Of a DNA stretch of 20,066 bases, positions 2,844-16,968 are shown one piece after another. The translations under genes and the position numbers were made by a program. The stretch is from a virus: positions 1 through 20,066 of IMG/VR virus record IMGVR_UViG_3300009155_000347, one strand, 5' to 3'. The notes beneath the pieces were generated by a model. It saw only the letters and a program-made list of their open reading frames with translations. It searched no databases and was not told where the DNA came from. Numbering within the stretch: position 1 is the first letter of the stretch; the number at the start of each line of letters is the position of its first letter.

Positions 2844-4133
2844 TCATCCTGCGTAAATAAGAACAGGAATCTTTTGAGAAACCTTTTGAACATCATCGGA
2901 CATTTTAGCTTCTGTTTCAGCAATCTTGTGATAAGTTACTTGATCAAGAATCTTATTTAATTCTTCTTTCAATTCTTTCTTTTCTTCTTTTGCTTCCGAC
3001 ATAAGTGCAGGACCATTTAAAGTAACAGAGTCACCTGGGATTGGTAATGTACTAAACTTGGATCTAACTTGTCCTAGCATTTCTTTACATACCGCTAAAG
3101 CATAACGACGTATCCACTGTTTACCTATTGCGTTTATATTCTCAAATGGTATATTGGAGAAGGGAAGTGTATTAATGTTATTAACCCCACCAGTTTCGGA
3201 GTCGCTTGAATTTGAAGGTGTTTCCCAAGGATTTGCTTCATTTGATATACTAAATTCAACCCACATATGATCTACACCTATATCACTTGGGCATGGATAT
3301 AATCTAACTTTATTATTTTTAATCTCATAAGAGAAGTGAGAGTTTCTTGTGTAGATTGCTGTTTCATAAGCCATAGCCTGTAATTTATTGTGCCATGTTG
3401 GGATTACTTCAAACGTGCTATCATCAGCATATTGACCATAAGATGATAAATTACCAATAGCATTTAAGCCGCCATAGTAACCAAAAAATCTCCACATAGA
3501 GTTTGGAGTTTTATAAAATACTTTTCTTATTATTACTCTTTTATTTCCAACTGAACCAGAGTAAGGTACAGGACCGCCACTTGCTTTATCTACGTTACTT
3601 AAAGAAGATGATTCAATAATAGCTTGTAAGTCATAATCTTGAACACTTGGGGTAACACTGAAGGAAGCTGAATATATTTGTTGTGTTGAGCCTATTCCAG
3701 CTTCAAGTGAAAAAGCATCACCATATCTTGAAAAATAATCTAAATTATATCTTGGATAAGCTAATTGTGGAGTTTGACCCGATAATGCTGAACCAGAAGT
3801 AAATTCTCCATCACTATTAAAGGTTCCTGTTGCTGCTCCAAGAAAAGTAGGCATAGCGTTAATTGCTTGATGTAAATTAACAATATAAGAGTATTCTAAT
3901 ACAGCTTCTTCATAAGCAGCGTATACATTTCCTGTTGTTATTTCAATATCTAATATATCACCACCAAGCTTTTTATATACATAACCAACTTGGTCTGCTG
4001 CTCCTGTTAAAAACGCTGGGGAGGAAGCATAAATACCAAAAGGTAAAGCTGCTGCTACATCTACCAGATTTCCTGCTGATGGTAATACAATAGCACTTAA
4101 AGTAGAAGCAGGAGTTAACGTAGGGACAGCCAT
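2844..4133 (-). CDS. Neck / head-completion protein (gp13-like)
   Basis: This 429-residue protein is probably a neck protein joining the filled head to the tail. The informative part is near residues 330-395: QWIRRYALAVCKEMLGQVRS, then a 'LPIPGDSVTLNG' loop and SEAKEEKKELKEELNKI. T4-type gp13 proteins have the same arrangement, with a 'W..RY..AL.K...G..L.KF' helix, an 'LPGG..LNG' loop and a charged 'EA..EI..L..EL' helix. The N-terminal two thirds are beta-rich and longer than in T4 gp13 (309 residues), and the middle is Tyr-, Ser- and Gly-rich. The gene follows the capsid terminator and has a ribosome-binding site AAGGAG 11 nt upstream. A baseplate or adaptor role cannot be excluded, but the gene lies directly upstream of the gp15-like gene, as expected for a neck component. 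Confidence 0.6.
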   Translation of the reverse strand: MAVPTLTPASTLSAIVLPSAGNLVDVAAALPFGIYASSPAFLTGAADQVGYVYKKLGGDILDIEITTGNVYAAYEEAVLEYSYIVNLHQAINAMPTFLGAATGTFNSDGEFTSGSALSGQTPQLAYPRYNLDYFSRYGDAFSLEAGIGSTQQIYSASFSVTPSVQDYDLQAIIESSSLSNVDKASGGPVPYSGSVGNKRVIIRKVFYKTPNSMWRFFGYYGGLNAIGNLSSYGQYADDSTFEVIPTWHNKLQAMAYETAIYTRNSHFSYEIKNNKVRLYPCPSDIGVDHMWVEFSISNEANPWETPSNSSDSETGGVNNINTLPFSNIPFENINAIGKQWIRRYALAVCKEMLGQVRSKFSTLPIPGDSVTLNGPALMSEAKEEKKELKEELNKILDQVTYHKIAETEAKMSDDVQKVSQKIPVLIYAG

Positions 4134-4233: not shown

Positions 4234-5997
4234 TCAAGAACCGCTTTCGCCAATAAGGCCACGGATAATGACCAAACCGTAAAGATCTGGTTTAACCATT
4301 TTCTTAGCGTAACGGGTCATTACACCTTTGCGTGGAACAAAGTCCTCAGTACCAAAGATGGTTGGAGTTACTTGGAGTGGGACGTATGGTGCATATACAT
4401 ATCCGCTTTCGAGGAATGAGCTGCCCTTACGACCAACGAGGATTACGTTACGAAGGAAGTATGGATCAACGTAAACGTCAAATTTCTTGGAGATTGAACC
4501 AACGTTAATTGCTCCAATTTCACCCTTCTCGTCTTCGTGAGTTACTTTAGCTCTAAAGCCAGATGTAAACTCAAGAACGTTTGCAGTTTCTGGACCACAT
4601 ACGATAAAGTTTGCACCACCGCGAAGTGTCTTTCTGTGGATTTGGGCTGATACATCATTAATTGTTTCAATCAAGGTTTCGTACCAAGCTGAGACAGTAC
4701 CAGTGAAATCTGGAGCTTTAGCTGATGCACCAATTTCGGCACCAGTTAATCTGTTTACGAACAAACCTGGTGATCTTGACCAGTAGAATGTTCCAGCAGT
4801 TGCACCTTTGATAAGGTCTTCAAGAATTTCACGATCAATTTCAAGACCGATTTGTTCTGAAAGAATTGAGGTAAGCTCAACCTCTGCATCAAGATTGTGA
4901 TAAGCATTAAGATCTTGACCAAGTTCTGGTGTCCATTTTGCTTTCATTTTCTTGGTTATAGCGGTGATTGATACTGAATCGACGGAGATATCGATCTCTG
5001 GTATTTCAGTTTGAGCCTCAAGACCCCAAGTATCTTGACCAGCAATTGCGCCAAGAGCGTTAGTTGAGCCAGCAGCAATATTAGTTGTGCCAAACTTATC
5101 AACTATTGGGAATTTAGCTATAACGCTTGCAGCTTGTGTACCAACAGAAGCATTAAGAGTATTTAATGAAGCGTCAGTATTGGCTGGTGCTGTAAATACA
5201 AGATAAGTTTTTCCATCATTTGCAGCGGTAGCAGTTGAACCAACAGTAATACCATTTCCAAATTGTGTTAATCTTCTAACTTGGCTACCACTAAGAAGTG
5301 ATGTGCTGTCTGCTACGATAGCAACCAAATTTCTCTTGTTAAGAGCAACAAACTCAGTATCAGTTACTACTGAAGCGACCAATACTCTGGTTGAACCAGA
5401 AACAAAATCTGCGTCAAAACGACAGAATTCGTCAATACCTTGTGTACCAGCACCAAATGTACCAGAAGCAACAACAGTAATTGTCATACCTGTATTTGAA
5501 CCAGTTGGTGAGGTATAGCCGTTATTAAGGTTATAGAAGCCTTTCTCAGCATTTACACCAGTTAAGCTAACACCACCAGTGATTTGTTGACCGAGAACGC
5601 CTTGACCGTAAACTGAATCATTTGCAGCATAACCTAATCTTGGACCAGATCCAGCAGTTGATGAAATCTTAAAGTCGAGGAAGAAGATAAGACCAGATGG
5701 AAGTGACATAGGTTGAACTGAAACGAGATCGTTGGCGATAAGACCAGCGAATACTCTGCGAACGATTGGGAATGCTACGGCAGCAAAACCTTCTACGTCA
5801 CCAGCAGCCATAGCTGAAGATTCGCGAAGAAGCTCTTTTGCTTGGTTCTCAAGAAGACGAGCCATAGTGTGTTTTGCTCTTTCTGTACGAATACCTTCTA
5901 AAAGACCTGTTCTTTCCCATTTATTAAGAAGGGCTGTTCCTTCTTTTGCGAGGTCACGTTGAACCATGCCCTCTGTTAATCTTTCGATAATAGACAT
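4234..5997 (-). CDS. Major capsid protein (gp23-like)
   Basis: This is the main shell subunit of the head. Residues 74-110 (VAFPIVRRVFAGLIANDLVS, then VQPMSLPSGLIFFLDF) are the conserved gp23 signature, equivalent to T4 'VRRAIPNLIAFDICGVQPM'. The C-terminal part also fits the family: FIVCGPETANVLE, then VYVDPYFLRNVILVGRKGSS and YAPYVPLQVTP. At 587 residues it exceeds T4 gp23 (521); a beta-rich, Gly/Thr/Ser-rich segment at about 155-300 looks like a surface insertion. Residues 1-70 are charged and helical, as in the cleaved gp23 propeptide. Glutamates that could be prohead-protease sites are E50, E59 and E69, and LRE at 57-59 best fits the T4 (I/L)-X-E rule. The ribosome-binding site AAGGAG is 8 nt before the ATG. 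The gene ends in a strong terminator, consistent with high expression. Confidence 0.95.
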   Translation of the reverse strand: MSIIERLTEGMVQRDLAKEGTALLNKWERTGLLEGIRTERAKHTMARLLENQAKELLRESSAMAAGDVEGFAAVAFPIVRRVFAGLIANDLVSVQPMSLPSGLIFFLDFKISSTAGSGPRLGYAANDSVYGQGVLGQQITGGVSLTGVNAEKGFYNLNNGYTSPTGSNTGMTITVVASGTFGAGTQGIDEFCRFDADFVSGSTRVLVASVVTDTEFVALNKRNLVAIVADSTSLLSGSQVRRLTQFGNGITVGSTATAANDGKTYLVFTAPANTDASLNTLNASVGTQAASVIAKFPIVDKFGTTNIAAGSTNALGAIAGQDTWGLEAQTEIPEIDISVDSVSITAITKKMKAKWTPELGQDLNAYHNLDAEVELTSILSEQIGLEIDREILEDLIKGATAGTFYWSRSPGLFVNRLTGAEIGASAKAPDFTGTVSAWYETLIETINDVSAQIHRKTLRGGANFIVCGPETANVLEFTSGFRAKVTHEDEKGEIGAINVGSISKKFDVYVDPYFLRNVILVGRKGSSFLESGYVYAPYVPLQVTPTIFGTEDFVPRKGVMTRYAKKMVKPDLYGLVIIRGLIGESGS

Positions 5998-6021: not shown

Positions 6022-7050
6022 TTATTTAATACCTGCTAAACGACGCATTCTTTCCACTTCTGGAGTTACTGTATCGTTTTGCTTTGTGTGAAATACAGAT
6101 GAAGAAGGTCTATTTAAGGCTTCGCTAAGTGATTTTGGAGCAGATACTTTTGTATTACCCCCCACTGTGCTTTGAAGTGTTTGATAGATTGTCTTTGCTT
6201 CGTCTGTTGTTTTTGCGTTAGATAGTGCTTCGACAAGTTTATCTTTTTGTCGCTCATTCAAGGAGTTACTATTCAATACGCGGTTTGTATAGAGAAGTTT
6301 AGCATTTGTTACGGATAACTTATCTAAGTTCTCTTTTAACTGTGATACTGCGCTCTCGTATTGTTCTACTTTATTTGCAAGTGCTTCAGTAATCTTTTCA
6401 AGTTTTTTATATTCAACTTGTAAACTTTTATTTTGTCTGGTAAGTTTTTTGTTTTCTTCAATCTTAGCTTCAACTTCTTCTTCTGCTTCAAGTTGAACTT
6501 TTTTGGCTGCTGCAATATCTTTTTGATATTCAACTTCTAATGTGTTGGCTGGATACTCAATATTACCATATGGAACTGTTCTAGCATCAACTGTAAGTTT
6601 TTCATAGAGATCTAAAAGTTCTCCTTTATCAATCTCATATTCTTCGCCTTCTTGAAGTTGTGCTGCTTGTGATTGGATAAATTGATCACGGGACATAGCA
6701 GAACCATTATTACCAGAAAGATCAATATTAGCTTCTTTGGCTATTCCATCAACATCGCCAACTGTTAAATCAATTGTAATTTGATCCCCATCTTCTGGGC
6801 AAGGACACATTTTTTGTCCGTCTTTATAAGCTTGGGTCATTTGATCGCCAACGTTTCCACCATTAATACCAGATGTTCCACCTTCCGACGCTACTGGAGA
6901 ATTAAAGCCTTCGTCTTGTTCTAATAAGCTTTTTATTGCGTCTTTTACTTCAGTTGAATATCTTTCTAATACTTGTGCTTCTGCATTCTTAAGTGCAGCT
7001 TCTTTTAATGCTGTGGCATCTATAATTGCTTGTTCTAACAAAGAAGACAT
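6022..7050 (-). CDS. Prohead core scaffold protein (gp22-like)
   Basis: This is the internal scaffold around which the capsid assembles; it is normally degraded by the prohead protease. The chosen ATG at 7050 begins MSSLLEQAIIDATALKEAAL and has GGAG nine nt upstream. An in-frame start at 7080 would lie upstream of that site and has no ribosome-binding site. From 7050 the protein is 342 residues. Residues about 155-265 are a long charged coiled coil, followed by NAKLLYTNRVLNSNSLNERQ and EALSNAKTTDEAKTIYQTLQ. I associate that segment with gp22 proteins of T4-like phages from marine cyanobacteria. The C-terminus is VERMRRLAGIK. An odd CPCP motif lies near residue 82. The gene sits 24 nt upstream of the capsid gene, as gp22 does in T4, and two CTATTTAT elements precede it. 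Confidence 0.88.
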   Translation of the reverse strand: MSSLLEQAIIDATALKEAALKNAEAQVLERYSTEVKDAIKSLLEQDEGFNSPVASEGGTSGINGGNVGDQMTQAYKDGQKMCPCPEDGDQITIDLTVGDVDGIAKEANIDLSGNNGSAMSRDQFIQSQAAQLQEGEEYEIDKGELLDLYEKLTVDARTVPYGNIEYPANTLEVEYQKDIAAAKKVQLEAEEEVEAKIEENKKLTRQNKSLQVEYKKLEKITEALANKVEQYESAVSQLKENLDKLSVTNAKLLYTNRVLNSNSLNERQKDKLVEALSNAKTTDEAKTIYQTLQSTVGGNTKVSAPKSLSEALNRPSSSVFHTKQNDTVTPEVERMRRLAGIK

Positions 7051-7064
7051 TAAGGAGTTCTCCA

Positions 7065-7071
7065 ATTTATA
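7065..7071 (-). promoter_or_regulatory. TATAAAT element before scaffold gene
   Basis: The minus strand reads TATAAATT just upstream of the GGAG ribosome-binding site of the scaffold gene. It differs in one base from the T4 late consensus TATAAATA. A similar element lies before the sheath gene, where it also follows a (C/T)TATTTAT element. The AT-rich context makes chance occurrence possible. Confidence 0.3.
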
Positions 7072-7082
7072 TGTAATCAAAA

Positions 7083-7263: not shown

Positions 7264-8556
7264 TTAGAATACCATCCATGCAGATCCGTCCCATACTAAG
7301 GAAATGGCTGCACCGTATGACTCAAGAACAACTTGGCTTAAGCCTTCGATTGTTCCACCAACTTGTGGAACAATTATTACTGATGCAGTAGGATCGGCAG
7401 CATAGCACTTAATTCTGTGCTCTTGACCAACTGCTGGTCCAACTGGGAGATTAAGAGTGATATTTGCTGTAGCTTTAATAACGTTATCACCACTTAGGAT
7501 TGTATAATTTTCTGCTTTTGGTACAACATTAAGTTGCATCGAACCTACGAGGTTACCGTAGAATGATGTAGCCTTAACTGCTGGTGCAACTAATGGAAGT
7601 GATGAAGAAAGAACGTTTTCAGCACTACCACTACTATCAATATTAACTTCAGCAGTTAATAATGTTGCGTGACCAACGTGTGAACCAAAGTCGATACCAA
7701 CGTCAGTAGCAAAAGCAGTTGAGCCAGAAGCCATAAGGATTCTTGCATCTTTAATCTCAAGGTTTGTAGCGTTAACTGTGGTTAAAGTACCAGTTATATT
7801 GAGGTTTTCCATCGTAACTTGACCAGTGAAGGTTAAATTCTTGGAGATTGTGCTTGGAAGGCTTACTGTAGCAGTTCCACCAAGAGCTAATGGTGAACCA
7901 ACTACTGTAACTTCGCCAGCAGTTCCGTTGATTGTTACTGAGCTGCTAGCCAACATAGCATTTGTAATTCCACTATTTGGAACAGAAAATATACCAGTAG
8001 CAGGAACATAACTAAGACCAGAACCAGGACCAAAACGTCCTCTAACCCAACTTTCATCAACTTGTAAACCACTTGCATTCTTTAGAAGAGATGCACCAGT
8101 AAGCTCAAGTGAGAATTGACCAGTTGCAGAAGCATATTCGATACCTTGACCATCGGCACTAAAGTGTGCTCTTGCTTCGGCAGCAGATGGGCCTGTGTAA
8201 GTGAATACACCAGAACCAGAATTATAAGTAAGTGAACCATCACCACCAGCATCAGTTACGGATACTGCGGTTCTTGCTCTTGAATCTAAGTAGTATTTGT
8301 TGGTTGAACCTTCAGTTACTGCATCAGTTCCAAATGAGCCAGATTCGCCAAGTGCTACTGTTACACCGTTAAACTTTACTGTGTTGTTAACAAGTTTATC
8401 GTTTGTTATACCACCAGAAAGTTCGGTATTATTGATTACGCCAGCGTCAAGGTCTACATCACCATTAACGATAAGACCACCTTGTGAAGTAATTACTTGT
8501 GCTGTTTCGATTGAACCAGAAAGTTTTGCTTTACCTAATTGAAATTTATAAGCCAT
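7264..8556 (-). CDS. Fibre-like virion protein, 430 aa
   Basis: This is a Gly/Ser/Thr/Val-rich beta protein, probably a trimeric fibre or surface appendage. The N-terminus MAYKFQLGKAKLSGS resembles that of the 373-aa neighbour (MAYKFSVGAYQHSGS). Residues about 80-200 contain NKYYLDSRAR, DGSLTYNSGSGVFTYTGPS and a second G-LSYVPATGIFSV unit, a repeat type I associate with large structural proteins of marine phages. A middle unit (TNLEIKDARILMASGST) is shared with the 373-aa protein. The C-terminal 80 residues form the domain common to five proteins here: a 'L.LP.....G....IK' strand, then 'GGTIEGL' and a final DGSAWMVF. The ribosome-binding site TAGGAG lies just after a hairpin and T-run. A strong terminator follows. 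The receptor and exact position on the virion are unknown. Confidence 0.75.
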   Translation of the reverse strand: MAYKFQLGKAKLSGSIETAQVITSQGGLIVNGDVDLDAGVINNTELSGGITNDKLVNNTVKFNGVTVALGESGSFGTDAVTEGSTNKYYLDSRARTAVSVTDAGGDGSLTYNSGSGVFTYTGPSAAEARAHFSADGQGIEYASATGQFSLELTGASLLKNASGLQVDESWVRGRFGPGSGLSYVPATGIFSVPNSGITNAMLASSSVTINGTAGEVTVVGSPLALGGTATVSLPSTISKNLTFTGQVTMENLNITGTLTTVNATNLEIKDARILMASGSTAFATDVGIDFGSHVGHATLLTAEVNIDSSGSAENVLSSSLPLVAPAVKATSFYGNLVGSMQLNVVPKAENYTILSGDNVIKATANITLNLPVGPAVGQEHRIKCYAADPTASVIIVPQVGGTIEGLSQVVLESYGAAISLVWDGSAWMVF

Positions 8557-8580
8557 ATTTTTTATCTCCTAATAAAAAAA
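8541..8580 (-). repeat. Leader/start repeat shared with the 373-aa fibre gene
   Basis: This segment contains the first codons, the TAGGAGATAAAAA ribosome-binding region and a run of T (minus strand). It is nearly identical to 12511-12550 at the start of the 373-aa fibre gene. In both places a hairpin lies directly upstream of the T-run. The match covers non-coding as well as coding bases, so it suggests duplication of a gene with its leader, or a conserved translation-start cassette. Confidence 0.7.
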
Positions 8581-8623
8581 CGACACATAGTCCAAAAGCC
8601 GAAACTGTTAAACTATGTGTCGT
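8574..8623 (-). terminator. Hairpin plus T7 between two fibre genes
   Basis: On the minus strand ACGACACATAGT (8623-8612) pairs perfectly with ACTATGTGTCGT (8591-8580) around a 20-nt loop, followed by seven T. This looks like an intrinsic terminator for the gene ending at 8690. The T-run, however, ends only 17 nt before the next ATG, next to its ribosome-binding site. It could therefore instead be a 5' leader hairpin or attenuator of the 430-aa gene. The 133-nt gap holds no other gene. Confidence 0.75.
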
Positions 8624-8689
8624 AAAAGTAATTAGTGAATTAATTTTCCAAAAGCACTTGACAAATAAAAAAAGTTTGTTAGCAAAAAT

Positions 8690-9100
8690 TTAATAGATAA
8701 ACCATTTGTTAAATCCGTCTGTATAAAGATTTAATGAAGCATAAGGTGAGTCAATTGTAAAGGTATCTTCTCCGTCTACTCTGTCACCATTTAAAGTATC
8801 AATTATTATTGGATAAGTATCGGCCATTCCACCTTCATCTTTTATAATATAAGTTCTTCCATTAACAGAACCAGAAGCGTTTGGTAAGGTCAAAGTAATG
8901 CTACAAGCTGCATTTTCGGTATGAACTCCAATAAAATATTCTGTTCTTTTAATGTTATAAGAAGAAGATATAATAGTTCTATTGATTATTAATCCATCTA
9001 TTTTTAATAAAGTTGATTCAAGAAGATCAGCTTTAATAGTATTTGTTACTTCTTGATCTCCTACCATTTTAGGTATAGATTTATATGTTTTATATCCCAT
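8690..9100 (-). CDS. Small fibre-tip-like protein, 136 aa
   Basis: This protein consists of a short N-terminus (MGYKTYKSIPKMVGDQ) followed by the shared C-terminal beta domain. Residues about 35-136 read IDGLIINRTIISSS, FIGVHTENAACSITLTLPNA, GRTYIIKDEGGMAD, DRVDGEDTFTIDSPYASLNL and a final NKWFIY. It is closest to the end of the 444-aa neighbour (IIVNRTSTSSS, LSLPNAS, YVIKDEGGKAD, SPYAALNIYCDG, KYFIY). I chose the ATG at 9100 because it forms a TAATG overlap with the preceding stop, as at two other junctions in this window. An ATG at 9115, inside the preceding gene, is the alternative and would add five residues; neither has a strong ribosome-binding site. It is probably a trimeric virion protein carrying only the tip domain. 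Confidence 0.72.
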   Translation of the reverse strand: MGYKTYKSIPKMVGDQEVTNTIKADLLESTLLKIDGLIINRTIISSSYNIKRTEYFIGVHTENAACSITLTLPNASGSVNGRTYIIKDEGGMADTYPIIIDTLNGDRVDGEDTFTIDSPYASLNLYTDGFNKWFIY

Positions 9101-10149
9101 TAGAACAAATTCCATCCATTTGAAGCTTTATACAAACTTATTGAACCGTGGTCTACATCAATTTTAACGTATGGTTCCAAATCTATATATTGACCGGAAG
9201 AAGCGGATACCGTAATTGGCCGTATTGTAGTGGCTAATCCAGTTATATCTTTAACATGTATTACTCTTCCGTTTGTTGTTGAAGCTAAAGTTGGTAGTGA
9301 TACTATTATACCAGAGTAGGTACTATCAACACCAATAAAATAATCATCACTTACAACTGAATAACTTGATGTAATTAAAATTGTTTTATTTGTTATCGCT
9401 GAACTTGATAAAGTAATTTGTGAACCATTAACTAACAAAGTTCCACTTATAGAAACAGAACCAGTAATTATTACATTATCTCCTGCTGAATCTCCAAGAT
9501 ATGTGTTCCCACCAACAGTTAAATTGTTTACTACTGTTAAATTATTAAACGAATAGTTGTTTGAATAGTTTGCTTGTGGAGATGAACCAGTTGAAGTAGA
9601 TGTTGTAGCTCTTGTCGTTGGAACTGTATTAGCAACAAATTGAGGATTAAATAAACCTTCTCTTGCTCTTATACATTTAGCCATTACTTCAAATTTGTTT
9701 TCTATCTGCCCAAATAATTGTTTTGGTTCATCAAGTTTAACAATTTCATAATATCTATCACCATATAAAACAAAATCACCTTCACGAACAAAAACATCTT
9801 GATCTTCTGTTAGACGTTTTTTGTGAAAGTGAATTTCTATTGATGTTGCTTTATCAATACCAATATTTTGTGTGAAGGATTGTGTTTGACCTTCCCATTT
9901 AACCAAAGCATAAATTCTTATTGGAGGAAGATAAGTTTTTTCTATTGCTTCCCCATAAAGAGGATGGAAGTTAGAACGATCAATATCTACTGAGAAATAC
10001 GCTACCTGTTGACCAATAACTCTTTCAATAAGTTCGTCATTAACTTGCTTAACAAGATTACGCTCCTTCTCTCCTGTAAATAAGGGAGGAGGAGGTTGAG
10101 CGGGCTGCGTCCAAGCAGTTTCTTCTTTTTTCTTTCTAGGTCTTGCCAT
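9100..10149 (-). CDS. gp14-like neck protein fused to a fibre domain, 349 aa
   Basis: This looks like a two-part virion protein. Residues 25-170 resemble T4 neck protein gp14. 'FHPLYGEAIEKTYLPP' (61-76) matches T4 'LIFGEDLKNKF', 'IGIDKATSIEIHF' (96-108) matches 'FGMQVQDEVTLSI', and 'REGDFVLYGDRYYEIVKLDE' (122-141) with LFGQ matches '[20 protein letters not shown]' with 'YQLGQ'. A Ser/Thr/Asn-rich linker (173-200) leads to a fibre part (NNLTVVNNLTVGGNTYLGDS, then VIITGSVSISGTLLVNGSQI). The C-terminus is a divergent copy of the shared beta domain (YFIGVDSTYSG, HVKDITGLATT, ending NGWNLF). The N-terminus MARPRKKKEE is basic. No Shine-Dalgarno sequence is visible; instead CTATTTAT lies 5-12 nt before the ATG. 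The fusion suggests an appendage anchored at the neck, comparable in position to T4 whiskers. The gp14 match is from memory of the T4 sequence. Confidence 0.65.
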   Translation of the reverse strand: MARPRKKKEETAWTQPAQPPPPLFTGEKERNLVKQVNDELIERVIGQQVAYFSVDIDRSNFHPLYGEAIEKTYLPPIRIYALVKWEGQTQSFTQNIGIDKATSIEIHFHKKRLTEDQDVFVREGDFVLYGDRYYEIVKLDEPKQLFGQIENKFEVMAKCIRAREGLFNPQFVANTVPTTRATTSTSTGSSPQANYSNNYSFNNLTVVNNLTVGGNTYLGDSAGDNVIITGSVSISGTLLVNGSQITLSSSAITNKTILITSSYSVVSDDYFIGVDSTYSGIIVSLPTLASTTNGRVIHVKDITGLATTIRPITVSASSGQYIDLEPYVKIDVDHGSISLYKASNGWNLF

Positions 10150-10154
10150 TAACT

Positions 10155-10162
10155 ATAAATAG
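10155..10162 (-). promoter_or_regulatory. CTATTTAT element directly before the neck-fibre fusion gene
   Basis: This is an exact CTATTTAT on the minus strand, inside the 22-nt gap before the ATG at 10149. It is too close to the start codon for an ordinary promoter with a ribosome-binding site. Read on the plus strand it is an exact TATAAATA, the T4 late-promoter consensus, but pointing away from every gene here. The role is uncertain. Confidence 0.28.
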
Positions 10163-10171
10163 GTTATTTTA

Positions 10172-10705
10172 TTAAAAACCTTTAGTTACTACATTATAAA
10201 AAACTTTGCCAGTAACATTAGTAGTTTTGCCGATTGTTGCTGTTGAATGGTTAAATGTCATAACATCACCACCACCGTTCTCCCCATATTGAATTCTAAT
10301 TGGATAAGAAGTGTTAGCAGTAAGTGAAATTGTACCAGACACTTCTTGTGGTCCGTGAAGACCAGCATTATTGACTGTTGCGTTTGCTGTTGTAAAACCA
10401 GAAACCGCATTAGTTCCAATCCACATAAAAGAGGCATCGTCCGAACTTAAAAAGAACGTATATGTTTCAGTAGTCGTAGGAACAAAATATCCTAACCACT
10501 GCATACTAAAACTATTGCCGTCTTCTGAGTTTGGCTCTTCAATTACAGTTGTTTGAACTAATGTTGCAGTTGGAGTAGCCGTAGCAAAAAAAGAAGGAAC
10601 GTCAGCAAAATAACCAGAATAAGTAGTTCTATATAATCCAGCGGCTAAAGAACTTACTGGATTATAAGAAATTGGTCCTGCAAAAGATGAAATTCTGCTA
10701 ATCAT
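10172..10705 (-). CDS. Stand-alone PA14/GLEYA-type carbohydrate-binding protein
   Basis: This 177-residue protein is almost entirely one PA14/GLEYA-like beta-sandwich. Residues 23-35 (GLYRTTYSGYFAD) form the first strand. SMQWLGYFVPTTTETYTFFL (67-86) and SSDDASFMWIG (87-97) are the core, with the adjacent Asp pair D89-D90 and W95 typical of the family. NNAGLH (112-117) and SYPIRIQYGENGGGDVMTFN (133-152) match the 'YPIRI.Y.NGGG' end. In PA14-type adhesins the Asp pair helps bind calcium and sugar. No signal peptide or membrane segment is present, so it is probably a virion protein that binds host surface glycans. It lies 4 nt after the 189-aa fibre gene and just before the neck-fibre fusion gene. 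The fold call is confident; sugar binding is inferred from the family. Confidence 0.82.
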   Translation of the reverse strand: MISRISSFAGPISYNPVSSLAAGLYRTTYSGYFADVPSFFATATPTATLVQTTVIEEPNSEDGNSFSMQWLGYFVPTTTETYTFFLSSDDASFMWIGTNAVSGFTTANATVNNAGLHGPQEVSGTISLTANTSYPIRIQYGENGGGDVMTFNHSTATIGKTTNVTGKVFYNVVTKGF

Positions 10706-10709
10706 AATT

Positions 10710-11279
10710 TTATCCGTATGTACTCATTTGACCAAGAGTGATCCAAGTGCTGCCAGAACGTATAAGTGAGAAACCAAATATATCATATTGGTTTGCATTT
10801 CCAGTTGGTTTTATTTTGTTAGCCCAATTAATTGTTGAAGAAGTAGAATTAATTTGTAATGCTTCAACGATCCTAGCTGTTGCACTTTGAGACATAACTA
10901 TTGTAACAGATGTAGTTCTGCTAGTAGTTGTTGGAACATTTGTAAAGTTTGCTGTTATATTACCAGTTGGTCCACTATTATAGAAAACTGAATTGACTAA
11001 TGTATCATAGGTAACAGATCCAGTTCCACCAGAAGAAATTGTTAATTTTTCGGATGTTGTTCCAAGTATGAATTGTGCTCCTGCACTTATATCTCCACTT
11101 ACAGCGAAAGATCCAGTTACAGATACTCCTACTTTTGTAACAGATAAAACTGTACTTCCACTTGTTACTAAATCAATTTGATCATCGCCAAAATCAATTT
11201 TTGTGTTTAATTGTGGGTCTTGTACGGAAATTAAATCTCCAATTATTTGTGAGCCAGTTCCAAAATAATTATATGCCAT
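10710..11279 (-). CDS. Short fibre-like virion protein, 189 aa
   Basis: This is a beta-rich Ser/Thr/Gly protein. The N-terminus MAYNYFGTGSQIIGDL recalls the MAYKF starts of the neighbouring fibre proteins. Residues 22-68 (LNTKIDFGDDQIDLVTSGST, then VTKVGVSVTGSFAVSGDISA) form a repeat type that I associate with fibres of marine phages. The C-terminal part (NSTSSTINWANKIKPTGNAN, ending GFSLIRSGSTWITLGQMSTYG with a 'SGSTW' near the end) is not the same domain as in the other fibres but has a comparable 'GSTW' finish. It is separated from the PA14-type gene by 4 nt, so the two products may be partners, for example shaft and adhesin. It is the first gene after a strong terminator and a CTATTTAT element. 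Function is inferred from composition and position. Confidence 0.65.
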   Translation of the reverse strand: MAYNYFGTGSQIIGDLISVQDPQLNTKIDFGDDQIDLVTSGSTVLSVTKVGVSVTGSFAVSGDISAGAQFILGTTSEKLTISSGGTGSVTYDTLVNSVFYNSGPTGNITANFTNVPTTTSRTTSVTIVMSQSATARIVEALQINSTSSTINWANKIKPTGNANQYDIFGFSLIRSGSTWITLGQMSTYG

Positions 11280-11326
11280 GTTATTAAATAGTCCTATAGT
11301 TTAAACAAACATTCTCTTGTTTTAAT

Positions 11327-11334
11327 ATAAATAG
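11327..11334 (-). promoter_or_regulatory. CTATTTAT element after terminator, before 189-aa gene
   Basis: This is an exact CTATTTAT on the minus strand, 17 nt past the stem of the upstream terminator and 47 nt before the ATG at 11279. A variant CTATTTAA lies at 11291-11284. The 124-nt gap (11280-11403) contains only the terminator and these elements. It is a good candidate for a late promoter serving the 189-aa, PA14-type, fusion and 136-aa genes. Confidence 0.42.
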
Positions 11335-11342
11335 CAAAAGAT

Positions 11343-11377
11343 AATAAAAAAGGGAAGCATCCGTTAGGATACTCCCC
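11343..11377 (-). terminator. Intrinsic terminator after 373-aa fibre gene
   Basis: On the minus strand GGGGAGTATCC (11377-11367) pairs over all 11 positions (two G-T wobbles) with GGATGCTTCCC (11362-11352) around a TAAC loop. TTTTTTATTAT follows. It is a textbook Rho-independent terminator about 26 nt after the stop codon. Confidence 0.9.
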
Positions 11378-11403
11378 AATTTTATATCTAACCTAAAACT
11401 AGA

Positions 11404-12525
11404 TTAGAAAACGTGCCAGTTAGTTCCGTCACATGCGAATGTTGCGGCAGCATATTGAGTTCCTAGTGTAACACCAGTTGCTGCTGCGACACCATCAATT
11501 GTTCCACCAAGGGATTTAACAAATACTAATTTTGTTCCTACATTTTTAACTTTGTAAGTAAGACCAATAAAACTTGGTCCTGCTGCTGGTAAGTTTGCAG
11601 TAATATCAGCAGCAGTTGAATCTGCAAGTGTTATAAATTTTGAAATATTAATTGTAGCGGTTGAAGCAGATTCTATTGACTCGACTATCTTGGTATTAAG
11701 AAGAGACGTTCCAGTGATATTACCTGCTGTAAAATCTGTAAAGCCTGTTGAACCGCTGAATTGCCAAGAATCACCAACAGTACCCATAGAACCACTTACA
11801 AATTTAAGTTGATAACCAGTATTACCAAGAGTAAGACCAGCACCATTTACTTGTGCGCTTGTTGTTGATCCAGATGCAAGAATTAGATTTACATCTTTGA
11901 ATTCTACAACAGATGAACTTACATAAGTAATATTTCCATTAACAGTTAAATTACCATTTAGGGTTGTTGCACCAGCTACAGTAAGTGCTCCACCAACTTG
12001 TAAAGTTGATGAAGCTGAAAGAGTTGTAGCAGTTGTAGCTTGGGCATTTAATGTTTGAAGTGTTGAAGTTCCAACAACATCAAGCGTAGAAGAAGCACTT
12101 AGTGTTGTAAATTTACCACTAGATTGAGTAGATGCACCAATTGTAGTAGCATTTATTGTACCACCATTAATTTGAAATAGGGAACCAGTAATTTGACCAT
12201 TTACAGTAATAACATCTGCTGGAGCGTCACCAAGAGCTACGTTACCACTTAGAGTTGTGACACCAGTAACAGTTAGTGTTGTTGTACTAATGTTTGCTGG
12301 GCTAAATGTTCCAACTGTTAATGTTCCAAAGTTTGCTGTTGAAGCAGACATATTTGAAGATGCTGTTATATTTGTTGAACTAATATTTGCTGGACTGAAT
12401 GATGCTACTGTTAATGTACCGAAATTACCTACAGCACCAGAAACTGTAGTTGAACCTGTAATGTCTACTGTTGCTTGTAGAGAACCAGAGTGTTGGTATG
12501 CTCCTACTGAAAATTTATAAGCCAT
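11404..12525 (-). CDS. Fibre-like virion protein, 373 aa
   Basis: This is a Ser/Thr/Gly/Ala-rich beta protein, probably a trimeric fibre. It starts MAYKFSVGAYQHSGS, like the 430-aa protein. Residues 34-49 (NFGTLTVASFSPANIS) are repeated at 65-80 (NFGTLTVGTFSPANIS), a 31-residue direct repeat. Further units of the type 'TLSASSTL.V.G' follow. The segment EFKDVNLILASGSTT near residue 214 parallels LEIKDARILMASGST in the 430-aa protein. The C-terminal 85 residues form the shared beta domain (INISKFITLADSTAADITAN, YKVKNVG, GGTIDGV, ending DGTNWHVF). The start has a TAGGAG ribosome-binding site in a leader almost identical to that of the 430-aa gene. A strong terminator follows. Receptor and exact location on the virion are unknown. 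Confidence 0.72.
   Translation of the reverse strand: MAYKFSVGAYQHSGSLQATVDITGSTTVSGAVGNFGTLTVASFSPANISSTNITASSNMSASTANFGTLTVGTFSPANISTTTLTVTGVTTLSGNVALGDAPADVITVNGQITGSLFQINGGTINATTIGASTQSSGKFTTLSASSTLDVVGTSTLQTLNAQATTATTLSASSTLQVGGALTVAGATTLNGNLTVNGNITYVSSSVVEFKDVNLILASGSTTSAQVNGAGLTLGNTGYQLKFVSGSMGTVGDSWQFSGSTGFTDFTAGNITGTSLLNTKIVESIESASTATINISKFITLADSTAADITANLPAAGPSFIGLTYKVKNVGTKLVFVKSLGGTIDGVAAATGVTLGTQYAAATFACDGTNWHVF
12286..12426 (-). repeat. 31-codon direct repeat inside the 373-aa fibre gene
   Basis: Two copies, 12379-12426 and 12286-12333, are offset by exactly 93 nt and encode NFGTLTV(AS/GT)FSPANIS. The bases have diverged at several silent and non-silent positions. This suggests an older tandem duplication of one beta-repeat unit rather than a recent one. 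Confidence 0.8.
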
Positions 12526-12544
12526 ATGTTTTTATCTCCTATTT

Positions 12545-12583
12545 AAAAAAAAACAAATACTATAACTTATTATATAAGTTATA
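12545..12583 (-). promoter_or_regulatory. AT-rich palindrome and T9 run before 373-aa gene
   Basis: A 10-bp perfect inverted repeat (arms 12561-12570 and 12574-12583, 3-nt loop) is followed on the minus strand by AGTATTTG-like spacer and nine T, then the ribosome-binding site. It could be a weak terminator of the 444-aa gene, a leader hairpin, or an operator. CTATTTAG (12602-12595) and TTGACA lie just upstream. The gap of 89 nt holds no other gene. Confidence 0.4.
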
Positions 12584-12614
12584 TCTTGTCAATACTAAAT
12601 AGTAATCTATTTTG

Positions 12615-13949
12615 TTAATAGATGAAATACTTGCTTGTTCCATCGCAATATATATTTAATGCTGCGTAAGGTGAATTTGCTGTAACAGAACTTGCACCAT
12701 CTATAGTTTGACCAAAGACAGAACAACTTACTATAATATTTTTACTATCAGCTTTTCCACCTTCATCTTTTATTACATAATGTTTTCCACTAGGTAATGT
12801 TGAAGCATTTGGTAAAGATAGAGTTACGCTTCCAACAGCACCAGAAGTATTAACTGCTATTATATGTTGTATGGAAGTTAAAGAAATACTAGAAGAAGTG
12901 CTAGTTCTATTAACGATAATTGTATCAAATTTTCCAATACTTGCAGTTAAAGCACTACCACTAAAAGTTAAACCGGAAGAACCAGTTAAAGTTCCTGTGT
13001 TTCCATTTTTAAATTGAATAGTCCAATCGTCACCAACTCCATTAACCTTAGCACCATCAATACCAGTTATATTATTTCCATCACCTCTAAGGGAACTAGC
13101 AGACATAATACCTATTACAGTTAGGCTACCAGTAATAGTAGAACTACCAGTTACTGTTAAACCATTTTTAATAATAGCAAAATTATTTATTGTTAGATTT
13201 GTTCCTGCTGTAATATCACCAGCAGTTTGTAGATTGGCTGAAGCTGATACAGAACCAGTTACAGTAACAGTTCCTCCAAAAGAACCACCACCAGATATTT
13301 GTAATCCAGAACCATTTATATTACCAGAACTTGAAATTGGTCCATTTATTATGGCTGACGTAGCAGTTATCTCTCCTGTTTTTATATTAACAGAAGAAGA
13401 AATAGCGGAAGAAGATAAGGTAGTTATATAACCAGTTCTCCAAAATCTTGATGAAGCACCAAGATCTACGTCATTTGTTGTTGCTGGTTGAATATTTGTT
13501 TTTGAACTAGCATTAAAATAAACTTCATCACTTAAAGAAGTTCCTAATTGGACGTAATCTAAAAATGATGCTGATGTTGCTGTTATTGTGTTTGTTGCTG
13601 TTAATGAACCAGATACTAACGTTGTTCCAGTTAAGGATAAAATATTTGTTGTATAATCAAAAGTTAAATTTGATTTACCAGCAAATGTAGAACCAGAATT
13701 ATATTGTAAATGTGTATTAGAGCCACCTGGACTTGTACTGCCTCCACCGCTACCAGAAACACCAAGATAATTTGATGCAGATATTGTTCCAACTACTGTT
13801 AAAATGTTTGTTGATGGATTAAAAGTAAAATTACTCGATCCAGAAAAAACACCAGAACCAGAATTAAACTGGACAGAATTGGTTGGACCAGCAGCAGCAG
13901 CCGATCCAGTTATAATACCGTTTACATAAGCCCAACCAAATCTACTCAT
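12615..13949 (-). CDS. Fibre-like virion protein, 444 aa
   Basis: This is the longest fibre candidate, rich in Ser, Thr, Gly and Asn. The N-terminus MSRFGWAYVNGIITGSAAAA is followed by two related units, SVQFNSGSGVFSGSSNFTF and HLQYNSGSTFAGKSNLTFD, each leading into a 'T.ILT(V/L)(V/T)GT' strand. Similar 'N.L.YNS.SG...G' units occur in phage tail fibres. Residues about 150-175 (SKTNIQPATTNDVDLGASSR then FWRTGYI) form another known fibre-type unit (DLG..S.RF...Y). A string of 'TGSLTV' and 'ISSSGNI' strands follows. The C-terminal 90 residues are the shared beta domain and are closest to the 136-aa protein. The ATG lies 1 nt after the preceding stop (TAAAATG), with TAGGAT as ribosome-binding site, so it is probably translated together with the 144-aa gene. 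It may be an upstream member of the fibre set. Confidence 0.72.
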   Translation of the reverse strand: MSRFGWAYVNGIITGSAAAAGPTNSVQFNSGSGVFSGSSNFTFNPSTNILTVVGTISASNYLGVSGSGGGSTSPGGSNTHLQYNSGSTFAGKSNLTFDYTTNILSLTGTTLVSGSLTATNTITATSASFLDYVQLGTSLSDEVYFNASSKTNIQPATTNDVDLGASSRFWRTGYITTLSSSAISSSVNIKTGEITATSAIINGPISSSGNINGSGLQISGGGSFGGTVTVTGSVSASANLQTAGDITAGTNLTINNFAIIKNGLTVTGSSTITGSLTVIGIMSASSLRGDGNNITGIDGAKVNGVGDDWTIQFKNGNTGTLTGSSGLTFSGSALTASIGKFDTIIVNRTSTSSSISLTSIQHIIAVNTSGAVGSVTLSLPNASTLPSGKHYVIKDEGGKADSKNIIVSCSVFGQTIDGASSVTANSPYAALNIYCDGTSKYFIY

Positions 13950-13950
13950 T

Positions 13951-14385
13951 TTATCCTACCCCTACAGAACCCGACCAATTATTACCAATACCATTAGGTC
14001 CAGAATTGTTTAAATGTGAAGTTGAAATGTTTGTAAGCTCAGCAAATATAGAAGCACTTGTTGGAGTTGTTGTATGAGAAAGTAAAAATATTGATGATAC
14101 TTTAACTTTAAAATCTTGTGTAGGATAAACTACAGAACTTGAAGCAGCGGGAATTATAAAATAATTTGTCCCAGAGACACCATTTGCTGAAAATCCTACT
14201 CTTAAAGCAGAAGCAGTATTCACATTTGATACTACAATTCTTTGTGTTATGTCTGGAAACGAAACTTGGGTAGGAGTTCCAGCGTTTGATGGTGCTGCTA
14301 TACTTGAAGTAGCATAAGGAGCACCAGAAACTTGATATGAACCTACATTCTGTAATCCAACGCCATAAGGATATTGCTGTGACAT
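13951..14385 (-). CDS. Small conserved virion-type protein, 144 aa
   Basis: This is a small beta-rich protein without cysteine or membrane segments. It starts MSQQYPYGVGLQNVGSYQVS, then GAPYATSS. Residues about 42-75 (VSFPDITQRIVVSNVNTASA, then LRVGFSANGVSG) and 90-115 (DFKVKVSSIFLL, then ASIFAELTNI) form a sandwich-like pattern. I associate this pattern ('GLQNVGSYQVSG', 'LRV.F', 'FAELTNI') with small structural proteins of T4-like marine phages, with only moderate certainty. It could be a head decoration or vertex protein. The ATG is 2 nt after the bS21 stop and has GGGAAG upstream inside the bS21 gene. The gene ends 1 nt before the 444-aa fibre gene. Confidence 0.6.
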   Translation of the reverse strand: MSQQYPYGVGLQNVGSYQVSGAPYATSSIAAPSNAGTPTQVSFPDITQRIVVSNVNTASALRVGFSANGVSGTNYFIIPAASSSVVYPTQDFKVKVSSIFLLSHTTTPTSASIFAELTNISTSHLNNSGPNGIGNNWSGSVGVG

Positions 14386-16374: not shown

Positions 16375-16968
16375 TTATTTTAAAATATCTTTGATAAGAT
16401 TTGAAACTCTTGCTTGTTTATTTTCGTTTACATTTCCTTTTCTCTCTTGAAACATAAATGCTCCATGAGTTGAAGGCTCCGAAACAATATCAAAACAAAT
16501 TAATTGGAAATCATCTTCTACGATTGTCTCTCCTCTGCTTTCTCTAACAGATCCAGTTCCTCTTGAAGAAATACCAATTTTAACATTAGCGTTAACTAAC
16601 TCTCTTAATACTTGACCAGATGGTGTATTGAGAACTTGAATTTTACCCATTACATCTTTTCCATTCCACCATACTTCTACTACAAGATGTGAAACGTTTT
16701 TAAGATTAATTACTGATAGGTCTGGATGATCCAGTTCTCCAAGTGCTCTTCTTTCTTGAACAAGTTGTTTGTATGTATCCATTTCTCTCGATAAAACAGA
16801 ATGAGGATAAATTCTTCCATTTCCATTTCTCGCATCTGCTCTTTGAATTACACCAGATAACATCATGCCACCATTTTTAATAAAATGTTTATCGGACTCT
16901 GTAAGTATGTCTTCGCAGATCCCATCGGGGCATAGTTCAAAAAATTCTCTTAATAGCGGTTTGGACAT
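16375..16968 (-). CDS. Prohead core protease (gp21-like, serine protease)
   Basis: This is the assembly protease that cleaves scaffold, capsid and internal proteins during head maturation. At 197 residues it is close to T4 gp21 (212). The fold markers are clear: GMMLSGVIQRADARNGNGRI (34-53), YPHSVLSREM (54-63), then GELDHPD (77-83) with the probable catalytic His81. KIGISSRGTGSV (130-141) holds the probable nucleophile Ser135, and ICFDIVSEPS (157-166) a probable Asp160. This His-Ser pair with a 'GISSRG' loop is the pattern of T4-type (S80) and related prohead proteases. AGGAA lies 8-9 nt before the ATG, and the preceding gene ends 16 nt upstream. The last 25 residues are basic and helical and may be removed by self-cleavage. 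Target sites are expected to follow the (I/L)-X-E rule known from T4. Confidence 0.93.
   Translation of the reverse strand: MSKPLLREFFELCPDGICEDILTESDKHFIKNGGMMLSGVIQRADARNGNGRIYPHSVLSREMDTYKQLVQERRALGELDHPDLSVINLKNVSHLVVEVWWNGKDVMGKIQVLNTPSGQVLRELVNANVKIGISSRGTGSVRESRGETIVEDDFQLICFDIVSEPSTHGAFMFQERKGNVNENKQARVSNLIKDILK

Follow-up and report, generated by a model that had tools for sequence, protein, structure and literature searches.

What role does a stand-alone PA14-type domain play among the fibre genes of a phage? The question was raised by a sequence-only reading, in which such a protein was proposed to be a virion component binding a receptor, glycans or mucus. The window analysed here is the entire record of a lake-water virus, 20,066 bases in length. 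Its source is a T4-like phage, a virus of bacteria, and the best relatives of its major capsid protein gp23 belong to phages of Microcystis, Rhodothermus and Flavobacterium, all with less than 60% identity, which is too distant for a host assignment. The genes are transcribed on the minus strand in the order gp21-like protease, fibre-like cassette, gp22-position gene, gp23, head-tail adaptor and sheath-like ORF (Table 1). The PA14 gene is an intact ORF running from 10705 to 10172, while the plus strand of this segment is riddled with stop codons. Comparison with near relatives gave a dN/dS of about 0.24 to 0.25, indicating purifying selection.

Table 1. Features of the window and of the PA14 protein and fibre encoded in it
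Feature	Position	Strand	Basis
Long ORF running off the window end, reads like tail sheath	3-1865	minus	Our reading
Head-tail adaptor	2844-4133	minus	phrog_211
Major capsid protein gp23, T4-like marker	4234..5997	minus	PF07068, 2.8e-71
gp22-position gene	6022-7080	minus	Named by position only
Fibre/adhesin gene cassette holding the fibre and PA14 pair	7264..14385	minus	ORFs; C-terminal module common to five genes
PA14/GLEYA-domain protein, stand-alone, 177 aa	10172..10705	minus	ORF, Pfam, fold, relatives
PA14 beta-sandwich (predicted), residues 21-174	10184..10645	minus	VIA-align range to RsgI PA14, Z 19.9, rmsd 1.5 over 135 residues
E142-N-G-G-G-D147, putative CBL2; 143-146 = specificity positions I-IV	10265..10282	minus	Epa1 alignment
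D89-D90, putative DcisD calcium motif (CBL1)	10436..10441	minus	Invariant in 45 relatives; aligned with Epa1 Asp pair
Short N-terminal tag, residues 1-16, MISRISSFAGPISYNP, predicted disordered, proposed docking peptide	10658..10705	minus	pLDDT <50 for 1-17; similar tags elsewhere
4-nt gap, fibre stop TAA to PA14 ATG	10706..10709	minus	Sequence; +4 also in related phages
Upstream fibre-like protein, 189 aa, ending DIFGFSLIRSGSTWITLGQMSTYG	10710..11279	minus	ORF; phrog_29506 and phrog_5906
Fibre C-terminal beta domain, residues 79-189, proposed docking head	10713..11045	minus	Model pLDDT mostly >90; alignments
Prohead core protease, gp21-like	16375..16968	minus	PF03420, 3.5e-27

Five proteins of the cassette (7264-8556, 8690-9115, 9100-10149, 11404-12525 and 12615-13949, all minus strand) have a C-terminal module of about 80 residues in common and differ in their N-terminal parts. 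Two of the five begin with MAYKF..G....SGS, like fibre genes of related phages, and this segment may serve as an anchor tag on the virion side. In the protein at 9100-10149 roughly the first 170 residues (MARPRKKKEETAW...) look unlike a fibre, and a similar protein is encoded at 653-1600 of locus L003. This protein seems to be a non-fibre structural domain fused to a fibre-type C-terminus.

The PA14 protein matched two Pfam profiles far past chance, GLEYA with 4.3e-21 (75.5 bits, cut-off 26.2) and PA14 (PF07691) with 5.1e-15 (56 bits, cut-off 24). An AlphaFold (AF2) model, built from an alignment of 45 relatives, reached a pLDDT of 90.3 and a pTM of 0.85, and the predicted fold is a PA14 beta-sandwich. 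The top VIA-align matches were the PA14 domains of RsgI anti-sigma factors (PDB 6qe7 and 6qdi, Z 19.9 and 19.1), with an rmsd of 1.5 to 1.8 over 135 to 136 residues at 21 to 22% identity; these were also the best PDB sequence matches. They were followed by Flo1/Flo5 (Z about 17.8) and the RTX-adhesin PA14 domain 6m8m (16.8), and further down by MpPA14 and Epa1 (about 16 each) and protective antigen (about 13). The model resembles solved PA14 lectins, including the Epa/flocculin domains with which the sequence-only reading had proposed to compare it.

That reading had described the whole protein as one PA14 domain. Pfam and the model bear out the domain, while residues 1-17 form a separate, disordered segment of low confidence (pLDDT below 50) that resembles a tag. 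The term 'GLEYA-type' agrees with the profile match and is otherwise loose, as the closest structures are bacterial RsgI domains. The 177 residues contain no cysteine, so that the protein is without the Cys-bridged neck of GLEYA/Flo5-like fungal adhesins. D89-D90, W95 and YPIRIQYGENGGG were all found as described, and D89, D90 and W95 are invariant in the 45 relatives. YPIRIQYGENGGG had been taken for the end of the protein; it occupies residues 134-146, and the fold continues beyond it through residues 147-177, with strands at 147-154 and 168-171 and a conserved C-terminal VTGKVFYN..T.GF. A PHROGs search gave no family for the PA14 protein or for three stand-alone relatives, and tblastn of 50,697 cultured-phage records gave only two distant matches to it.

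In fungal PA14 lectins the DcisD motif holds calcium together with a CBL2 Asn; the specificity is set by the four residues after this Asn, which also make most of the sugar contacts (PMC6218569). DcisD is also present in MpPA14 (PMC8092209). By sequence, the consecutive Asp pair of this motif occurs in 45 of 45 relatives of the phage protein, and D89, D90, N113, H117, E142 and D147 are all invariant among them. E142 aligns with the calcium-ligand Asn of Epa1 CBL2, which we take to be N225; the position is Glu in all 45 relatives in place of the Asn of the Flo5/Epa type, and its carboxylate could bind calcium. Residue 143, which had been assigned to the CBL2 loop by alignment before variability was computed, ranked first in variability among 157 core columns of the 45 relatives. 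An invariant site beside a variable residue 143 is the pattern expected of a conserved putative metal site with a tuned neighbour, though it does not prove binding.

The family is not rare, as an alignment search of IMG/VR gave at least 173 relatives of the PA14 protein. Among the 80 that were kept the module was located at the C-terminus, in some cases alone (177 to 196 aa) and in others behind varied N-terminal parts (up to 701 aa). Eighteen records had one PA14 match each, and gp23 was present in 10 of these, the others possibly being fragments. Across 11 phages the mean identity was 34% for gp23 versus 71% for PA14, a comparison biased by the choice of these loci through PA14 similarity. 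PA14 was more alike than gp23 in 52 of the 55 phage pairs, with a weak correlation between the two (r 0.24). Even so, the presence of PA14 modules about 75% identical in phages whose gp23 is only about 20% identical suggests that the module has moved from phage to phage, or else that it is unusually strongly constrained.

A near match in GTDB genomes (69% identity) was found on a 254 kb contig of a Bacteroidetes MAG (L253), possibly a phage contig that was binned with it. Many Hymenobacter genomes (L258, L259, L264-L274 and L283) encode PA14 domains 29 to 43% identical to the phage module, possibly a cellular source or a link to the host.

The gene had been placed amid phage fibre genes, and it does follow a fibre gene directly. 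The 4-nt gap between the two suggests translational coupling. The upstream fibre gene ends in LGQMSTYG, and every fibre found to end in LGQ[ML]STYG, in loci ascertained through PA14 or LamG, had a tagged protein at +4 nt behind it. The tagged proteins start with M..R.S.FAGP or a sequence near it and carry PA14 alone, laminin-G, or a discoidin-like domain plus PA14. The tag of the window protein is thus similar to that which opens laminin-G and discoidin plus PA14 proteins of other phages, and the C-terminal domains behind it are swapped.

To escape the bias of a PA14-based start, the fibre C-terminus was used as query in a further scan. This gave 39 distinct downstream N-termini, 32 of which began +2 to +6 nt past the fibre stop. 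A short Ser-rich tag pattern, chosen after inspection, was present in 28 of the 39 N-termini versus 14 of 132 control ORFs (p 3e-13). In held-out distant loci the signal of tag composition persisted (p 1.3e-5); the strict motif was weaker there (10 of 26 versus 21 of 131), the tag being loose in these loci. The bodies behind the tags were unrelated to each other and comprised PA14, laminin-G, discoidin-like (below the cut-off) and unnamed domains, with Gly_rich_2 or FG-GAP repeats in loci further out. This combination, in which one head precedes lectin-like bodies that are unrelated but similarly tagged, is as expected from a docking tag with an exchangeable tip. Flavobacterium phage immuto, which has been cultured, has a fibre-like gene directly followed by two laminin-G-like proteins annotated as 'structural protein'.

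In L196, L199, L201, L203 and L252 a fibre head of the same type is followed in the slot by Gly-rich gp38-like proteins, which could provide a route to receptor-binding proteins in uncultured phages.

Structural comparison of the fibre head with trimeric phage adaptor modules gave weak matches, the best with a Z of 8.1 (Pa223 capsid spike) and others with 5 to 7, while Foldseek alone gave no significant match for the head. A T4 gp10-like docking domain was considered for it and dropped; the matched parts of CBA120 TSP4 (residues 78-180), T4 gp9 and StcE are the XD1 module, with low Z. XD1 may be only a spacer, as its authors suggest. With this and the low Z scores, no family is claimed for the fibre head.

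A second N-terminal tag, approximately MII(G/S)SGI(T/R)(V/I)G(A/S)G, occurs on the stand-alone PA14 relatives L024, L025, L029, L030, L043, L046, L050, L081 and L084. In the loci looked at (L025 and L050) the gene before the PA14 gene with this tag is not a fibre. A third type of N-terminal segment was found in L031 (5908-6498) and L035 (5902-6492), where gp23 and one further gene lie on one side of the PA14 gene and a neck-like gene on the other. The fibre tip is not the sole platform of the PA14 module, because these other N-termini occur away from such a fibre.

The window protein itself is, in our judgement, probably a calcium-dependent PA14 lectin docked as the tip of a T4-like phage tail fibre. 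It would be made separately from the fibre and docked onto the C-terminal fibre head by its N-terminal tag of 13 to 17 residues, much as gp37 of T2-type phages carries gp38 as its cap. Terminal sugars on the surface of the host would then be bound by the lectin face, with D89-D90, E142 and loop 143-147, and residue 143 would tune the choice of sugar. The position after the fibre, which is the place of other lectin-like or Gly-rich gp38-like proteins elsewhere, favours a receptor-binding part of the virion.

A decoration of head or neck, comparable to Hoc or whisker proteins and binding surface glycans or mucus instead of forming the receptor-binding tip, is unlikely for this protein, although some gene positions are in line with it. 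The PA14 gene is near the gp22 and gp23 genes in the window, in L001-L006 it immediately precedes the gp22-like and gp23 genes, and in L031 and L035 no fibre lies beside it. Nevertheless, in the window and in the relatives with the same tag the gene is locked at +4 nt behind the fibre, even in differing surroundings, and the tag is also found on other proteins of that slot. For mucus binding, which the sequence-only reading had also offered, nothing specific was found in its favour. We consider it quite improbable that the PA14 domain is a rigid end-piece, a structural cap that binds no ligand and retains the sugar site as a relic. Such a cap would agree with E142 in place of Asn, and no glycan ligand could be found for KpFlo2A, whose fold is that of a PA14 lectin (PMC6218569), but invariant site residues next to a most variable specificity position are the pattern of a tuned binding site. 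Least probable of all, and very much so, is a fibre-folding chaperone like T4 gp38, which would be needed for trimerisation of the fibre and then released. Such chaperones are encoded immediately after a fibre gene, as the PA14 protein is, and T4 gp38 is released after assembly (PMC12892980). A chaperone should however be conserved together with the fibre head, yet the same head precedes unrelated lectin-like folds, and the PA14 site shows the conservation seen in sugar binders.

The fibre tip of the window may be one case of a wider arrangement. Freshwater uncultured T4-like phages may use a plug-and-socket fibre tip, in which a Ser-rich tag about 13 residues long lets one head take interchangeable tips of unrelated folds, and the PA14 plug travels between T4-like phages whose gp23 is about 20% identical; we regard the chances for and against this generalisation as evenly balanced. 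If it is true, the host range could be changed by exchange of one small gene. Most lake phages are known only by sequence, and their host-touching proteins are mostly unknown; if head and tag are paired as proposed, the receptor-binding protein would be the next gene after the fibre head, whatever its fold. These phages would also gain a known sugar-lectin chemistry, calcium plus one tuning residue, with predictable ligands.

The closest solved fold is that of RsgI PA14 (6qe7, 6qdi), although RsgI proteins are bacterial anti-sigma factors with tandem PA14 domains, and have neither the phage tag nor a fibre. The fungal lectins Flo1/Flo5, Epa1 and Cea1 resemble the phage protein in fold (Z about 16 to 18), in the Asp pair and in the location of the CBL2 loop. 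In contrast to them the phage protein, at 14 to 25% identity, is without cysteines, disulfide neck and GPI anchor and has Glu for the CBL2 Asn.

PA14 domains have been encountered in phages before. In 2010 T4-like phages of Synechococcus were already noted to have a 'PA14 carbohydrate-binding domain' gene (PMC3037559); the likeness is that of a PA14 domain in T4-like phages, and the gene is only named there. In the Pelagibacter phage HTVC112P (32 kb) the PA14 region of tail protein gp47 is 31 to 34% identical, but it is embedded in a protein of about 1100 aa, whereas the window protein stands alone. The best viral model match, 66% identical and matching in structure over 167 columns, was A0A6J5SX62, a 'GLEYA adhesin domain containing protein' from uncultured Caudovirales. 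It contains the same module, which means that a PA14 domain in a phage is in itself no novelty. At 289 aa it is longer, apparently with an N-terminal module as in L048, whereas the window protein stands alone behind its tag.

The arrangement is most comparable to gp38 on gp37 in phages T2, S16 and PP01, where a separate adhesin gene with a variable distal part lies beside the fibre gene. As for gp38, the PA14 gene is located directly downstream of a distal fibre gene, at +4 nt in the window. T2 gp38 caps the gp37 tip and interacts with gp37 through its N-terminus (PMC12892980); in the window and its relatives a tag common to the slot proteins follows a common fibre head, and some of these slot proteins are Gly-rich, as gp38 is. 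Instead of the Gly-rich PGII sandwich of gp38, the window protein has a PA14 lectin fold, and its tag of about 13 to 17 residues is shorter than the N-terminal region of gp38, to which no sequence similarity was shown. In Klebsiella phages conserved peptides of as few as 7 residues are thought to provide the attachment of second receptor-binding proteins (PMC6872550). While the PA14 domain in phages was known, what is new to us is its proposed place in a plug-in slot at the fibre tip, one common to many binding domains without relation to each other.
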